Below, in pieces: positions 33,304 to 38,311 of a stretch of DNA of 64,000 nucleotides. Every line of letters starts with the position of its first letter. The first letter of the stretch is position 1. The notes beneath the pieces are model-generated. The model searched no databases and was not told the origin of the DNA. It was given only the letters and a program-made list of their open reading frames with translations. The position numbers and the translations under genes are program-made. The DNA is from an uncultured Bacteroidota bacterium (GTDB lineage: Bacteria > Bacteroidota > Bacteroidia > Chitinophagales > Chitinophagaceae): assembly GCA_903824665.1 (NCBI GenBank), contig CAIJXT010000030.1, positions 124,001-188,000 of the forward strand, in the 5' to 3' direction.

Positions 33304-33939
33304 ATGCAGGCAAAAAACGCAGTCCGCGAAGTATTCAACAACAATGCCGAAGAATACCAGGCCCGGTTCATGAATATAGACATGTACCACCAGTCGCTCA
33401 GCCTTTTTGCCGCGCAGATACCTCACGATAACGCCCATATTCTCGACATTGCCTGCGGACCGGGAAACATCACGCAATACCTGCTGCAACTGCGGCCTGC
33501 CTTCAGTATCCTCGGCATTGACATAGCCCCCCGAATGCTTGCACTCGCCGCTGCCAACAACCCCACAGCCGAATTCAAAGAGATGGATTGCGGCGATATC
33601 CGCTCACTGCCCGGCTCATTCAGTGGTATTGTATGTGGCTTTTGCCTGCCCTATTTGGCACACAATGCCGTGGTCAAACTGATCAGTGATGCCCATAGCA
33701 TGCTGCACCCCGGTGGCGCATTCTACCTGAGCACTATGGTGGAGAACGCCCACAACCAGTCCGGATTGCGGCGTTCATCGTCAGGATTGTACGAGCTCTT
33801 TCTGCACTATTATCCCGAGGGTATACTCACAGACCTGATAACCCATCAGGGCTTTACCATCATCCATACCGGGCACGAAACCTATACCGCTGCCGATGGC
33901 ACAATCACTACCGATATTATGATAGTTGCAGTGAAATAG
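33304..33939 (+). CDS. Class I SAM-dependent methyltransferase
   Basis: A 211-residue soluble protein with the Rossmann-type methyltransferase motifs: motif I ILDIACGPGNITQYLLQ, the acidic residue after strand 2 (ILGIDIAPRMLALA), MDCGDIRSLPGSF at motif II, and CGFCLPYL at the post-motif. The substrate cannot be told; ubiquinone-type and small-molecule methyltransferases share this layout. It is divergent from recQ and has its own promoter. Confidence 0.85.
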   Translation: MQAKNAVREVFNNNAEEYQARFMNIDMYHQSLSLFAAQIPHDNAHILDIACGPGNITQYLLQLRPAFSILGIDIAPRMLALAAANNPTAEFKEMDCGDIRSLPGSFSGIVCGFCLPYLAHNAVVKLISDAHSMLHPGGAFYLSTMVENAHNQSGLRRSSSGLYELFLHYYPEGILTDLITHQGFTIIHTGHETYTAADGTITTDIMIVAVK

Positions 33940-33999
33940 CCCTGCACCTGCACACATTCTTGAATTGTATGTCTCCGGCCATACCACACCAATCTTCAG

Positions 34000-34007
34000 T
34001 AAATTTG
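34000..34007 (+). promoter_or_regulatory. -7 promoter box of the DUF6157 gene
   Basis: TAAATTTG, a full match to TAnnTTTG, ends 16 bases before the ATG. Confidence 0.45.
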
Positions 34008-34023
34008 CTCCCAAAAGCAGCAT

Positions 34024-34437
34024 ATGAAGGTGCATACCACAAATTATACAAACGCGTTCATCATGGTCGCCGACGACTGCCCGGCGGTCACCGCAGAGGT
34101 GCCGCCTATTAAGGGAACCACAAAAACAGCGGCCAATTTACAGTTTGAGCAAATAATCGAAAATCCCTACAAATTCACATCCGACGATGTGCTCTTCCGT
34201 GTTTATGCCCATAAAAACGAGCTACGCAAAGCCGATCTGGAGGAAGCCAGAACCGTTTTTTTCTCCAAAGGGCAGCCCTGCATGAGGGCATCGCCACTCA
34301 CCAAGCGCTACGGCTGGGGTGTTCATGCCGATAAAGACGGCAAAATAGCCCTGTATGCCCGCGAAACACCCGAATACAAGCAGTTTTCAGAAGATAAAAA
34401 GCTCGAAGTGGTCAAGGCTATGAAGTCCGCCAGATAG
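34024..34437 (+). CDS. DUF6157 family protein
   Basis: A 137-residue cytoplasmic protein. The pattern KVHTTNYTNAFIMVADDCP ... VPPIKGTTKTAANLQFEQII, NPYKFTSDDVLFRVYAHKN, FFSKGQPCMRASPLTKRYGWG and a C-terminal YKQF..DKKLEVVKAM matches DUF6157, a widespread family of unknown function. The C-terminal half is the most conserved. Stand-alone gene followed by a hairpin terminator. Confidence 0.8.
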   Translation: MKVHTTNYTNAFIMVADDCPAVTAEVPPIKGTTKTAANLQFEQIIENPYKFTSDDVLFRVYAHKNELRKADLEEARTVFFSKGQPCMRASPLTKRYGWGVHADKDGKIALYARETPEYKQFSEDKKLEVVKAMKSAR

Positions 34438-34438
34438 C

Positions 34439-34477
34439 GCCGGCACACGGTTCCAGCTATTGTGTCGGCTTATTTTT
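34439..34477 (+). terminator. Terminator after the DUF6157 gene
   Basis: GCCGGCACA pairs with TGTGTCGGC (one G-T pair) over a 13-base loop, then TTATTTTTGG. It starts 2 bases after the stop. Confidence 0.6.
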
Positions 34478-34508
34478 GGCATATTCTTTATTTTTCTTTC
34501 TAAAAATG

Positions 34509-34539
34509 TTTTGTGGGAAAAAGTATATGCTTATCTTTG
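34509..34539 (+). promoter_or_regulatory. Promoter of tRNA-Lys
   Basis: TTTTGTGG with TTG at 34511-34513, an 18-base spacer, and TATCTTTG at 34532-34539. This is one of the best matches to the Bacteroidota consensus in the window. It lies 48 bases before the tRNA. Confidence 0.7.
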
Positions 34540-34587
34540 CACACCAATTCGGAAAACGGGTCGGGATTTTTAGTTCTTTTAAAGTAT

Positions 34588-34660
34588 GATTTCGTAGCTC
34601 AGTTGGTAGAGCAATACACTTTTAATGTATGGGTCTTGGGTTCGAGTCCCAACGAAGTCA
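34588..34660 (+). tRNA. tRNA-Lys (anticodon TTT)
   Basis: A complete cloverleaf: acceptor arms GATTTCG/CGAAGTC (one G-T pair), D arm GCTC/GAGC with loop AGTTGGTA, anticodon arm ATACA/TGTAT with loop CTTTTAA (anticodon TTT), variable GGGTC, T arm TTGGG/CCCAA with loop TTCGAGT, discriminator A. CCA is not encoded. A terminator follows 7 bases later. The last part of this gene and the terminator are repeated twice downstream. Confidence 0.97.
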
Positions 34661-34694
34661 CTTTTTGAAAAGCCTCGCACACGCGGGGCTTTTT
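34631..34694 (+). repeat. 64-bp tRNA 3'-end/terminator repeat, copy A (in tRNA-Lys)
   Basis: Covers the variable loop, T arm and 3' acceptor strand of tRNA-Lys plus its terminator. It is identical over 64 bases to copy C (35135-35198) and differs by one base from copy B (35003-35066). Confidence 0.9.
34668..34694 (+). terminator. Terminator of tRNA-Lys
   Basis: AAAAGCCTCGC, a short loop, then GCGGGGCTTTTT: an 8-base stem with one G-T pair and a T run. The same hairpin is copied at 35040-35066 and 35172-35198. Confidence 0.8.
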
Positions 34695-34714
34695 GTTTTG
34701 TTGAAAGCACTACT

Positions 34715-34966
34715 ATGGGGTTTGTATACATACTGTATTCGGTTAAACTCAACAAATATTACGTCGGGGCTTGCACTAATCTGGAACGGCGAATTCGCGA
34801 ACACAATATTGGCCATTCCAAGTTCACTTCCTTAGGAGTCCCTTGGGAATTGAAATACAATGCGCGGTTTGATACACTTGCAGATGCTAAAAAGCGCGAG
34901 TTGGAAATAAAAAGCAAAAAATCGAGAATTTATATCGAGCGGCTCATAGAAAGCGCTCATAAATAA
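34715..34966 (+). CDS. GIY-YIG nuclease family protein
   Basis: An 83-residue single-domain GIY-YIG protein. It shows VYILYS (GIY strand), KYYVGACTNLERRIREHN (YIG strand followed by the catalytic Arg region) and GHSKFTSLG. The C-terminal WELKYNARF..LADAKKRELEIKSKKS holds the helix with the conserved Glu (KRELEIK). It is of the small UPF0213/YhbQ-like size. The gene sits 20 bases after the tRNA-Lys terminator, between the tRNA and two copies of its 3' half. This suggests it travels with, or helped create, those repeats. The ATG at 34715 is chosen; the frame further upstream runs through the tRNA. Confidence 0.85.
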   Translation: MGFVYILYSVKLNKYYVGACTNLERRIREHNIGHSKFTSLGVPWELKYNARFDTLADAKKRELEIKSKKSRIYIERLIESAHK

Positions 34967-34967
34967 C

Positions 34968-35032
34968 GCTCTGTTGGTAGAGCATCCCGCTTTTTTGCGG
35001 GAGGGTCTTGGGTTCGAGTCCCAACGAAGTCA
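34968..35032 (+). pseudogene. tRNA-Lys-like pseudogene B, lacking the 5' acceptor strand
   Basis: D arm GCTC TGTTGGTA GAGC, an anticodon stem TCCCG/CGGGA with an 8-base loop CTTTTTTG, then variable GGGTC, T arm and 3' acceptor CGAAGTCA identical to tRNA-Lys. The 5' acceptor strand is absent: the bases before the D arm are the end of the GIY-YIG gene. It cannot fold as a normal tRNA. Confidence 0.75.
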
Positions 35033-35066
35033 CTTTTTGAAAAGCCTCGCACATGCGGGGCTTTTT
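34977..35066 (+). repeat. 90-bp tRNA-derived direct repeat, copy B
   Basis: Runs from GTAGAGC through the anticodon-like hairpin, T arm, 3' acceptor and terminator. It matches copy C (35109-35198) over 90 bases with one mismatch; the offset is 132 bases. Confidence 0.9.
35040..35066 (+). terminator. Terminator copy within repeat B
   Basis: Same hairpin as the tRNA-Lys terminator with one base change in the loop (ACAT instead of ACAC). Confidence 0.7.
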
Positions 35067-35099
35067 CGATCATTGAATGTTTGAGATTGGGTTCCTGGC

Positions 35100-35164
35100 G
35101 CTCGGTCTGTAGAGCATCCCGCTTTTTTGCGGGAGGGTCTTGGGTTCGAGTCCCAACGAAGTCA
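35100..35164 (+). pseudogene. tRNA-Lys-like pseudogene C, lacking the 5' acceptor strand
   Basis: D-arm-like GCTC GGTCTGTA GAGC, then the same 8-base-loop anticodon hairpin, variable loop, T arm and 3' acceptor as copy B. No 5' acceptor strand can pair with CGAAGTC. Confidence 0.72.
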
Positions 35165-35198
35165 CTTTTTGAAAAGCCTCGCACACGCGGGGCTTTTT
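35109..35198 (+). repeat. 90-bp tRNA-derived direct repeat, copy C
   Basis: Partner of copy B. Its last 64 bases are identical to the end of tRNA-Lys plus terminator. Confidence 0.9.
35172..35198 (+). terminator. Terminator copy within repeat C
   Basis: Identical to the tRNA-Lys terminator hairpin and T run. Confidence 0.7.
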
Positions 35199-35240
35199 CA
35201 TTTTAAGTATTTCCAGCAGTAGTGCAGTTACCGGCACTAT

Positions 35241-35767
35241 CTATTTCGTCGTCTGGCTCCCCATTTTTTTACCCAGTGCCTCATAGGCAAGGTCGTCCGG
35301 TTCCCACAACTCTACTTTGTTACCTTCCATATCCAGAATGTGAACAAATTTCCCATATTCCACTGATTCAATGGTATCTACGATGGTCACACCATTCTTC
35401 CTGAGGTCTGCAACAAGTGCAGTGAGGTCAGCAACCCTGTAGTTGATCATATAGTCTTTCACCGATGGTGCGAAGTATTTTGTAGTCTCTTTAAACGGGC
35501 TCCACTGCGTAAACCCCTTTCGTGTCGTATCCTCACCCTGCCGCCATTCAAAAACCGCACCATAGGCGTTCGTAATCAGGCCCAGGTTCGTTCGGTACCA
35601 TTCCCTCATTTTGCCGGGGTCTTTGCACTTAAAGAATATACCCCTATACCCGTCACCCGCTTTGGTGTTTGCGCCTTCGGTGCCTGTTGCACAAGGGCGG
35701 TCTTAAACGCGTAACCCGATAGGAATGATGCAGCGATCATGATCACAGTAAAGGCTGTTTTCTTCAT
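35241..35767 (-). pseudogene. VOC (glyoxalase/dioxygenase) family gene broken by a one-base frameshift
   Basis: Two frames together encode one VOC protein. The upstream part starts at 35767 with KKTAFTVIMIAASFLSGYAF, a signal or anchor, and runs to KRVTGIG. The downstream part continues as IFFKCKDPGKMREWYRTNLG, then VFEWRQGED, YMINYRVADL, and FVHILDMEGNKVELWEP, the C-terminal VOC strand with its metal-ligand Glu. The break is at a run of four G on the coding strand (35640-35645); a fifth G restores the frame and gives the usual GIGGIFFKC, for 175 residues in all. Either a recent mutation or a sequencing error. In the database this may appear only as a 122-residue fragment. Confidence 0.8.
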
Positions 35768-35881
35768 ATTTTTTGTTTTAACGTTCAGGCAGATATCACT
35801 TTCGCCGGTGTCCGCACACACCAAGGTACGCCGCAACCCCGATGTTTGTATAACATCGTCAGGGCATCCGCTATAGGTCGC

Positions 35882-38311
35882 TTAAAAATTAAAGAGCAGC
35901 TTCACATTGATCAGCCGCGAGGTGAGCCGGTTGGGCACAGCATACATATTGCCCGAGCTCTGGTCTTGTATCCACGTGTAAGAGAGCGTGTTCTGTATAC
36001 TCAGCAGGTTAAAGACCTCAAGGCTGCCCCAAATGCTTTTCAGATTATTGAAGAAGCTGTTGGCATGATACTCCCGCTTGTCCCCATCCAGCAGCAGCGC
36101 AGAGAACCCTATGTCCACACGCTTATAGTCGGGTATGCGCAGTATGTTTTGGTACAGGTGTCCGCGGGGAGGTCCCACTGGCAGCCCGCTCGAGTACAGC
36201 AGGTTGATGTGTGCCTTGAAGTTTTTGTTCTTGGGCAGGTAATCTTCAAAGTACATACCCAGCATAAAGCGCTGATCGGTAGGCATCGGGAAGTAGTTAT
36301 CGTACCCGGCTATAGATGGGCTATCTGTTATTTTCTGTTCGGCTTTTAGTATTCCTATGCTTATCCACGATGTCGCATCCTGCACCAGATCGCCATACAG
36401 TCTTACTTCGCCCCCATACACATGCCCTATGGCATCGTTCTTGCCCGTATAGCGTATCCGCACATTGTCGTAGCGATACGGATCCATGTCCCATAGCTCT
36501 TTGTAGTAGGTCTCGCCGGTCACCTTGAATGGCCGGTTAAACATCTTGAAGTTATAATCTGTACCCAGCACTGCCTGCACCGATTTTTGTGCCCTCAGCT
36601 GTTTGTTGATGCCACCTGTAGGGTCGCGCATTTCACGGTAGAAGGGCGGCTGCACATACTTGCCCGCCGAGAATTTGATCACGATATCACGTTTGTCTGA
36701 TCGCGGCTTGTACGATAGCTGCACCCGCGGGCTTACGATAAACTCATTGTTCAGAAAGCTATGGTTAAAACGCACACCCGCCGTAGCCGTCAGCCTGCCA
36801 GAGTCAAAGCGTATATAGTCTTGTATAAACCCGCTGGCACGCATATAGTTAAACGAAGCCGAAGAGTGAAAAAAGCTCGCTATAGGCAAGTCGAAGGCAG
36901 AGTAGGGTTGTGAGAATGCGGCAGAGTCGCGGCGCTCCCACTCATGCAGCTGGTCGGTGATCCCGGTGGCAGTCACATTACCGCCAAACTGTATCAGGTT
37001 GTTCTTGGCCTCATACGTACCCCTGAAGCCCATATCACCTACATTCACATTCAGGTAGTTGCGGGCAAAGTTCTGTATGCCGCCCGCGCCCAGGTAGGTT
37101 TTTATCTGCCCGAAGTCGCGCTTGCTCATATCGGTCTGCAGCTCGCCCAGCAGGTAGGCGCCACTTATATCGTAGGTTTCATACTCGTTCGTGCTGAAAG
37201 CCGATCCCAGAAATTTCAAACGTAGTTTAGAGCCTTCCTTATGGTACGTGGTCGATATCCCTCCGAACCGCGAATCAAACTGATCAAACTCACCACCCTG
37301 ATAATACACATTCAGCAGAAACGCCTGATTCAGCACCCCAAAGCTCGATGATGAGGTCTCCGGGAAAAACGTGAATCTATTCCGTGCATAGTTACCTATC
37401 GCCTCCAGCTCCCAGCTTTTACCCAGCTTGTAGTTGATGAGTGCCTGAATGTCTGTGAATGACGGATTGTAAATGCCCTTCGTTGGCTGCGAGCGCAACA
37501 CATATTGGTTGCTTTTCTGCCGTGCACCCACCAGGTACGTCAGCCGCTGGTTCTTTGAGGCCCCCTCCAGGTGCATACTCGCCCCCAGCAGGCTCGTCGT
37601 TACCGATCCCGCAAACTCTTTCGGCCGTTTGTAGTTCACATCCAGCACACTGCTCATCTTGTCACCATACTTCGCCTGAAAACCACCTACCGAGAAGTTC
37701 ACATTTGATACCAGATCAGAGTTGATGAAGCTGAGCCCTTCCTGCTGCCCTGTACGCACCAGAAACGGGCGGTAGATCTCAAAGTCATTTACATACACCA
37801 GGTTCTCGTCAAAGTTGCCACCACGTACACTGTATTGCGATGTCAGCTCATTGTTCGATCCCACAGCCAGTTTTATCATGCCTTCCACACCACCTATTAT
37901 GCTGGGCATGTACACAGCCTTGCTCACATCCAGATACACCGATCCCGCCTCACCACGTTTGCGCTGGTCTTTCACGGTGAATTCTACAAGCTGGGTAGAT
38001 TTCTTAGGTGTCATCTGCACATCTATCGTGCGCGTAGCCCCGGCGGCCAGTAGTACCTGCCGCCTGATCACATCGTGCCCTGCCGAGTAAAAAACCACCG
38101 AAACATTTTTCCCACCCGGCACCTCCAGCCAGTAGTAGCCCTTTTTGTCGGTGTAGGTACCCATGCCGGTCTCTTCGTCGGCCACCAGCGCCTGTTCTAC
38201 AGCTTTGTTGCGGTCGTCTTTCACTATCCCCGTCACCACAGCCATTTGTGCATAGGTGCCCGTGGCCATCAACAACAAAACAAAAAACCAGACGAATCTT
38301 TGATGGAGCAT
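35882..38311 (-). CDS. TonB-dependent outer-membrane receptor
   Basis: An 809-residue barrel protein. It has a signal peptide (FVWFFVLLLMATGTYAQ), an N-terminal carboxypeptidase-regulatory-like domain of about 90 residues (VTGIVKDDRNKAVEQALV ... GTYTDKKGYYWLEVPGGKNVSVVF), a plug domain (QYSVRGGNFDENLVYVNDFEIYRP) and a C-terminal barrel ending LINVKLLFNF. Family members import large or scarce nutrients with energy from TonB. No SusD partner is adjacent, so it is not a classic polysaccharide-utilisation pair. Substrate unknown. Confidence 0.92.
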   Translation of the reverse strand: MLHQRFVWFFVLLLMATGTYAQMAVVTGIVKDDRNKAVEQALVADEETGMGTYTDKKGYYWLEVPGGKNVSVVFYSAGHDVIRRQVLLAAGATRTIDVQMTPKKSTQLVEFTVKDQRKRGEAGSVYLDVSKAVYMPSIIGGVEGMIKLAVGSNNELTSQYSVRGGNFDENLVYVNDFEIYRPFLVRTGQQEGLSFINSDLVSNVNFSVGGFQAKYGDKMSSVLDVNYKRPKEFAGSVTTSLLGASMHLEGASKNQRLTYLVGARQKSNQYVLRSQPTKGIYNPSFTDIQALINYKLGKSWELEAIGNYARNRFTFFPETSSSSFGVLNQAFLLNVYYQGGEFDQFDSRFGGISTTYHKEGSKLRLKFLGSAFSTNEYETYDISGAYLLGELQTDMSKRDFGQIKTYLGAGGIQNFARNYLNVNVGDMGFRGTYEAKNNLIQFGGNVTATGITDQLHEWERRDSAAFSQPYSAFDLPIASFFHSSASFNYMRASGFIQDYIRFDSGRLTATAGVRFNHSFLNNEFIVSPRVQLSYKPRSDKRDIVIKFSAGKYVQPPFYREMRDPTGGINKQLRAQKSVQAVLGTDYNFKMFNRPFKVTGETYYKELWDMDPYRYDNVRIRYTGKNDAIGHVYGGEVRLYGDLVQDATSWISIGILKAEQKITDSPSIAGYDNYFPMPTDQRFMLGMYFEDYLPKNKNFKAHINLLYSSGLPVGPPRGHLYQNILRIPDYKRVDIGFSALLLDGDKREYHANSFFNNLKSIWGSLEVFNLLSIQNTLSYTWIQDQSSGNMYAVPNRLTSRLINVKLLFNF

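Follow-up and report, generated by a model that had tools for sequence, protein, structure and literature searches.

Genomic islands that integrate at tRNA genes by means of tyrosine recombinases carry the 3' part of the tRNA as direct repeats and retain the function of the tRNA, and in the IS200/IS605 and REP-RAYT systems hairpins at the ends are recognised by the enzyme. Among GIY-YIG proteins, SLX1 and I-TevI act on DNA. According to the accessible part of one paper (PMC13096335), SegB of phage T6 has its cleavage sites inside tRNA genes, and the tandem amplification of a unit made up of tRNA-Tyr and segB depends on it; in this unit the 5' end of the tRNA shares microhomology with the 3' end of segB; a table excerpted from another paper (PMC2988022) places segB between tRNA genes. 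The accessible part of a 2006 survey of the GIY-YIG superfamily (PMC1564403) mentions tRNA three times, none of them in connection with chromosomal units such as those considered here. Among the matches listed from the open literature, which consisted of titles and the beginnings of abstracts and had most subscription papers outside it, chromosomal tRNA-nuclease units of this kind were not described.

We analysed a stretch of 64,000 nucleotides (hereafter the window), in which a sequence-only reading had picked out a tRNA-Lys gene followed by a small GIY-YIG gene and partial copies of the tRNA. We propose, with a probability of roughly 0.6, that a small selfish element of the homing type, widespread as a parasite of tRNA genes and bringing a spare tRNA with it, has one of its copies at this locus.

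The tRNA-Lys locus and its nuclease

The positions that had been read from the sequence for the repeat, the tRNA, and the GIY-YIG gene proved right when ARAGORN, a repeat finder, and Pfam were applied (Table 1). A single repeat family was returned, with copies at 34595-34695, 34967-35067, and 35099-35199, the latter two being 96% identical, and ARAGORN called a second, defective tRNA at 35089-35165. These repeats are not a matter of chance, because a 104-nt query taken from the first copy gave three matches in the 4.7-Mb genome, all of them at this locus (E ≤ 3e-27). When applied to the tRNA places found in the genome, ARAGORN recognised a single Lys(TTT), which is that of the window, as well as one Lys(CTT) and a single Asn(GTT). 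Compared with the full anatomy described below, the window shows just the downstream half, together with one extra remnant that has no nuclease gene. In a comparison of window positions 33304-36400 with the related locus L083, common methyltransferase and TonB-type genes were found in the flanks, and the segment that carries tRNA-Lys and its promoter region was inverted in the window genome.

Table 1. Parts of the tRNA-Lys locus, in positions of the window
Feature	Position	Strand	Basis
Intact tRNA-Lys, anticodon TTT	34588..34661	+	ARAGORN; Rfam tRNA 71.2 bits
Intrinsic-terminator-like hairpin and T run, 3' of tRNA-Lys	34668..34694	+	Sequence reading; repeated behind both remnants
GIY-YIG nuclease gene, 83 aa, start 53 nt past tRNA	34715..34966	+	PF01541, E 2e-12 (Pfam)
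tRNA-Lys remnant 1: D-arm part, hairpin for anticodon arm, T-arm, acceptor 3' strand	34967..35033	+	29.5 bits as tRNA
Hairpin H1, TCCCGC-TTTTTT-GCGGGA, at anticodon-arm place of remnant 1	34985..35002	+	Same hairpin type in relatives
Terminator copy 2	35040..35066	+	Sequence reading, repeat finder
tRNA-Lys remnant 2, without nuclease gene ahead	35099..35165	+	ARAGORN, repeat finder
Hairpin H2, equal to H1	35117..35134	+	Sequence identity
Terminator copy 3	35172..35198	+	Sequence reading, repeat finder

The window protein is a GIY-YIG nuclease by its Pfam match, by its conserved Tyr, Arg, His, and Glu residues, and by a confident structural model: Y16, G18, R26, H30, and E62 are kept in 99-100% of 202 proteins, and the AlphaFold2 model has a mean pLDDT of 88.4. 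Purifying selection was evident, with pN below pS in 203/203 close pairs, which are non-independent and include copies within arrays, and over the 50 pairs whose dS was finite the median dN/dS was 0.11. The nearest solved sequences by profile are UPF0213 proteins (BH0048, E 3.9e-13), which we take to be the YhbQ-like small GIY-YIG proteins, then SLX1, and then I-TevI. A group I intron endonuclease was rejected as an identification, since the TIGR01453 score of 27.2 bits falls short of the curated cut-off, 56.05, and the intact tRNA is uninterrupted. A tRNA-integrating genomic island was likewise rejected: the longest open reading frame (ORF) between 34588 and 35198 is a 113-aa frame that contains the nuclease, the other frames there being 50-75 aa, so that none is of a length to encode a recombinase.

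A tree of 115 nucleases (11/112 inner branches strongly supported; the "Stop" label of locus L018 replaced by Lys) required 35 changes of tRNA type, versus 74.4 with shuffled labels, and 0/200 shuffles gave a number as low. By this clustering the nucleases form target-site-specific lineages, as is expected of homing endonucleases, and Lys-type nucleases were found alike in Chitinophagaceae, Cyclobacteriaceae, and Saprospiraceae. On the same clustering we reject the idea of elements that mainly jump among the tRNAs inside one genome. The 3' remnant was compared with the tRNA of its own locus and with tRNAs of the same type elsewhere, and it matched its own tRNA better in 61 cases, equally well in 31, and worse in 10 (n = 102). 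Taken together, the clustering by tRNA type and the own-tRNA match make the nuclease and hairpin look like an old, target-specific part of the element, and the tRNA parts look local.

Occurrence beside tRNA genes and in close relatives

Relatives of the nuclease were found by protein search in 91 of 147 genomes of the family and by profile search in 197 of 296 genomes of the phylum, the tRNA context of the latter being checked in a minority. The family sample consisted of 109 loci among the matches listed (30 + 80, less L048, which duplicates L030), the weakest matches being left out. Adjacency counts were confined to ORFs of 45 bits or more with enough flanking sequence, which removed 3/132 ORFs from the family sample, where at least 200 nt upstream was needed, and 9/223 from the union described below. 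In the resulting 129 ORFs of the family sample, the 3' end of a same-strand tRNA lay within 150 nt upstream in 80 (median 37), 18 stood in tandem behind another nuclease gene, 11 stood directly before an intact tRNA, and 20 did neither; a tRNA on the opposite strand was found within 150 nt in 0/129. The non-redundant union of the family sample, the named genomes, and the phylum loci, with repeats removed, comprised 214 ORFs, and 138 of these were located behind a tRNA, 28 in tandem, and 12 before a tRNA. A tRNA, a tandem copy, or a following tRNA thus adjoins 178/214 testable relatives, and a hand calculation based on 39 tRNA matches in 4.7 Mb put chance adjacency below 1 in 1000. Conserved tRNA-free surroundings of the nuclease, which the sequence-only reading had named as a finding that would speak against it, are absent for most copies, with 36/214 ORFs lacking an adjoining tRNA.

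About 20 anticodons are used as hosts; the ARAGORN count of 22 is slightly too high, because some of its calls are misread hairpin remnants. Such remnants were called tRNA-Stop in L018, Leu in L017 and L129, and Cys in L135 and L137, and the automatic tRNA annotation of carrier genomes will hold false tRNAs of this origin. Among the carriers with a name are Algoriphagus, Litoribacter, Pinibacter, Saprospiraceae, and Flavobacteriaceae. Single contigs labelled Woesebacteria, Cloacimonadota, and unnamed bacterium (L152, L162, and L163) repeat the layout on tRNA-Ala and tRNA-Asp, which suggests either spread beyond Bacteroidota or mis-binning of those contigs. At another locus (L232, G451:C1:2944094-2947333), five near-identical units of the tRNA-Asp type, 315 bases each, stand in tandem, and this array suggests a recent amplification.

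The genome of the window holds five GIY-YIG genes. One of them (L002) repeats the layout of the window on another tRNA, in the order tRNA-Asn, terminator, GIY-YIG gene, and tRNA-Asn copy, with TCCCGC-ATTT-GCGGGA in the anticodon region of the copy; the three besides this one and the window copy have no tRNA within their loci of ~3 kb. A small GIY-YIG gene of the same genome (L001, G000:C19:9190-12408) was seen by eye to lie amid many repeats of ~50 bases, with no tRNA in the stretch, and is possibly a second association of a nuclease with repeats. Elsewhere (L304, G000:C15:173080-173300), a defective tRNA with the four-base anticodon gggg lies ~2 kb from an intact tRNA-Pro(GGG) on the same contig and is perhaps another remnant.

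In the genus of the window, 20 regions were obtained from 18/20 other genomes, and 3/20 of them contained no tRNA. The 17 tRNA-Lys loci comprised 11 that were empty, including one with 56 nt of DNA behind the tRNA (L174) and one not retrieved via its TonB neighbour (L184); 5 that were filled, including one cut by a contig end and one decayed; and 1 relic with the upstream remnant alone. Present and absent alleles therefore coexist in close relatives, as with homing elements, gain and loss not being separable in this set. Outside these 17 loci, G160 was filled (L110), and G165 had an upstream remnant with no nuclease gene in the stretch (L262). On the nuclease tree, the window copy falls into a group (support 91) whose six other members include at least three from its genus (L107, L108, and L110) and one, L013, from another genus. 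A fourth genus member, L109, falls outside that group on a branch that is not resolved, and the elements of the genus form no clean group. Such a grouping fits residence with loss as well as transfer.

Structure of the tRNA remnants

The 3' part of the locus's own tRNA recurs downstream of the nuclease gene in 110/131 loci at a score of at least 14 (shuffle maximum 12), and 21/131 have no detectable copy. The adjacency counts, these 110 loci, and the 11/17 empty loci of the genus largely agree with the expectation of the sequence-only reading that the nuclease lies beside tRNA tails and that empty sites exist. A perfect hairpin with a stem of at least 6 lies within 60 nt before the 3' copy in 92/110 loci, compared with 26/110 for the intact tRNA and 2/110 for shuffled sequences. 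Sixty of the downstream hairpins are of the TCCCG type, whereas different palindromes occur at some loci of the Met, Phe, and Leu types. The 5' part of the tRNA was found ahead of the intact tRNA in 50/135 loci, a hairpin of this type in 44/135, and both in 34. Places were de-duplicated in the 3'-copy, adjacency-union, and 5'-remnant counts, and the other-palindrome, upstream-hairpin, confinement, and covariation sets partly share places; in the upstream-hairpin set, the hairpins of L030, L058, and L145 do not read as tRNA remnants. Given the 5' remnant upstream, it looks as if the intact tRNA came in with the insert. Just 11/108 downstream remnants also keep the initial 12 nt of the tRNA, so that few of them could form a complete tRNA fold.

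The anticodon of tRNA-Lys is at 34, and its anticodon arm hence spans 27-43. Upstream tRNA-Lys remnants end at nt 26 (8/8) and downstream remnants resume at nt 44 (16/16, strict alignment); in tRNA-Lys, the hairpin substitutes for just the anticodon arm. Boundaries in other tRNAs, numbered from each tRNA's own first base in strictly aligned loci alone and for groups that are mostly small, are near the Lys pattern in Ala (27 and 42-45), Arg (27 and 45), and Val (28 and 46-47) and are mixed in Met. Other positions of the hairpin, or the removal of another stretch, were seen in Asp, Pro, Asn, Ser, and part of the Leu and Met loci. The stop codon of the nuclease gene was often seen, by eye, inside the D-arm or hairpin of the remnant. 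The full anatomy is that of a split tRNA gene, divided typically at the anticodon arm, with one hairpin per junction and with the intact tRNA and the nuclease gene nested in it.

These structures change part of what had been read from the window. The copies had been described as a tRNA 3' half plus terminator: the terminator and the 3' part are there, but D-arm sequence is also kept and the anticodon arm is swapped for a hairpin, which rules out 3' halves only. Nor are the repeats simply rebuilt tRNA 3' ends, as had been supposed; they are hairpin-bearing remnants, and a 5' remnant stands upstream in the 50/135 loci given above. The broader idea of a minimal tRNA-linked selfish unit gains from its recurrence, its patchiness, its tRNA-derived direct repeats, and the lack of room for a recombinase, and loses its simple rebuilt 3' ends.

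The sixth pair of the hairpin stem is intact in 56/58 distinct hairpins (shuffle mean 38.6, maximum 47) and the seventh in 47/53 (shuffle mean 34.0, maximum 41); the eighth gave no signal, at 14/25 (shuffle mean 10.3, maximum 16). The hairpin belongs to the element; its stem is maintained while its sequence varies. The motif TCCCGA...TCGGGA was found 219 times within 400 nt of nuclease genes (241 kb) versus 21 times in the other 380 kb, and 20 of these 21 distant sites themselves read as tRNA remnants; the reversed control occurred once near the genes and 0 times elsewhere, and the counts include some loci twice. A longer pattern, TAGAGCATCCCG...CGGGAGG, was present in 12/60 genomes of the family, with 0 for the reversed control. 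A general dispersed repeat was rejected as the nature of the hairpin, because the TCCCGA and TCCCGC types are nearly confined to these loci in the same 241 + 380 kb; for the CCTGCC and TCCGCC palindromes the check covered that same DNA alone. Hairpin-bearing tRNA-Lys remnants, in arrays or singly, were also observed in stretches that contain no nuclease gene (L255, L256, L257, L258, and L262), and L255 has three full-length hairpin-bearing tRNA-Lys copies in tandem.

Explanations and comparison with described systems

That the nuclease cuts tRNA genes and that the element moves is what we infer from the sequences. If the window locus is a copy of a homing-type selfish element, its nuclease would cut a tRNA gene at or near the place of the hairpin, and the break would be repaired by ends-in recombination with element DNA that already carries the hairpin for the broken stretch. 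Of the histories that could lead to the observed anatomy, this is the simplest: the target tRNA would be split, with a hairpin at each junction and an intact tRNA nested, in the order 5' part-hairpin, intact tRNA, terminator, nuclease, and hairpin-3' part. The nested tRNA would keep the cell alive, and its transcription may serve the nuclease too; the repeats could then permit tandem amplification, collapse, and loss. Several observations count against this explanation. The intact tRNA has a normal anticodon arm, and how a carrier escapes cutting itself is not obvious, although low read-through past the terminator may help it to tolerate that arm. The 36/214 ORFs without an adjoining tRNA, the 21/131 loci without a 3' copy, the divergent hairpin places in several tRNA types, and the tree grouping of the window copy, which suits loss from a resident element equally well, also count against it, as does the result that no copy matched in viral contigs, plasmids, or phages when the window protein was the query, a search that covered close relatives.

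The loci might instead be hairpin-bounded transposons, with the GIY-YIG protein as transposase, the hairpins as its recognised ends, and the tRNA as a mere target. We consider this unlikely, because the flanking repeats hold tens of tRNA bases, unlike a short target duplication, and TCCCGA-type hairpins are rare away from tRNA remnants in the DNA examined, even though the same hairpin type occurs upstream and downstream and solo hairpin remnants exist without the gene. The unit's one gene-like ORF is GIY-YIG, and the scan of that ORF gave no Y1 HUH transposase of the IS200/IS605 or RAYT kind. More doubtful again is a passive product, in which recombination is frequent at tRNA genes, the GIY-YIG protein serves as a repair enzyme of the host, and unequal crossing-over gives rise to the remnants. 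A foreign hairpin that is conserved and has its set place in each of several tRNAs would not come from simple duplication; just 20/129 ORFs of the family sample lie away from tRNAs, and the nuclease tree clusters per tRNA type. On the other side stand the tandem arrays of near-identical units, the remnants without a nuclease gene, and the empty sites, which could be losses. The sequence-only reading had itself considered simple tandem duplication as a source of nuclease-less repeats that would undermine it: such repeats do exist, but duplication leaves their hairpin unexplained.

The least probable account, in our judgement, is an RNA addiction system like the type III toxin-antitoxin systems, in which the nuclease would be an RNase restrained by hairpin-bearing tRNA-like RNAs that serve as a decoy and in some loci stand in tandem before the terminator and nuclease gene. 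Several loci do have the order repeats, terminator, and nuclease gene, the hairpin pairs covary, and full-length hairpin-bearing tRNA-like copies exist. However, few downstream remnants would be able to form a complete tRNA, the first 12 nt being kept in just 11/108; in 21/131 loci the 3' copy is absent or escapes detection, and upstream remnants occur in just 50/135. The nearest solved sequences are UPF0213, SLX1, and I-TevI, and in place of a ToxN-like RNase fold with RNA repeats upstream, the unit gave a GIY-YIG match and that minority of upstream remnants.

Beyond the single locus, we regard it as possible, at somewhat less than even odds, that the homing-type selfish element of the window belongs to a phylum-wide cut-and-rescue family, whose nuclease cuts essential tRNA genes, as a rule at their anticodon arm, and which leaves a hairpin on both sides and supplies a working spare tRNA. 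If so, cells taking up the element would live, and tRNA genes would become its permanent home. With a nuclease gene of ~250 bases on many kinds of tRNA, it would be among the smallest cellular selfish elements and a natural case in which a nuclease comes together with a spare copy of an essential gene. Such a family would account for many of the small GIY-YIG genes and unusual tRNA annotations of Bacteroidota and would make the gain, loss, and duplication of tRNA genes directly testable.

In behaviour, the nearest known system is phage SegB, a free-standing GIY-YIG homing endonuclease of T-even phages. As far as the accessible parts of the SegB papers go, both have a nuclease gene adjoining tRNA genes and a tandem unit of tRNA and nuclease, and here too the 3' end of the nuclease gene is often fused to tRNA sequence; those parts describe SegB as phage-borne and mention no hairpin-bearing tRNA remnants for it. 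In contrast, the elements described here are chromosomal, encode a protein of ~80 aa behind the terminator of the host tRNA, and occur on about 20 tRNA types, and the window protein matched no phage record. Of the solved structures, those that a sequence profile places nearest are UPF0213 proteins, which the PDB files as hypothetical proteins.

tRNA-integrating islands with tyrosine recombinases resemble the unit in their direct repeats of the tRNA 3' part and in the tRNA function that is kept, whereas the unit has no ORF of recombinase length and its repeat has a hairpin for the anticodon arm. IS200/IS605 and REP-RAYT elements, like the unit, have terminal hairpins and hairpin copies that stand alone, but their enzyme has another fold, and the hairpins here lie inside tRNA sequence. 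ToxIN-like type III toxin-antitoxin systems are similar in the repeats, terminator, and small nuclease gene of some loci and differ in that the repeats here are mostly incomplete tRNA copies and the enzyme has a GIY-YIG fold. We file the window unit with the free-standing nuclease elements and know of no counterpart to a hairpin-split tRNA with a spare copy.
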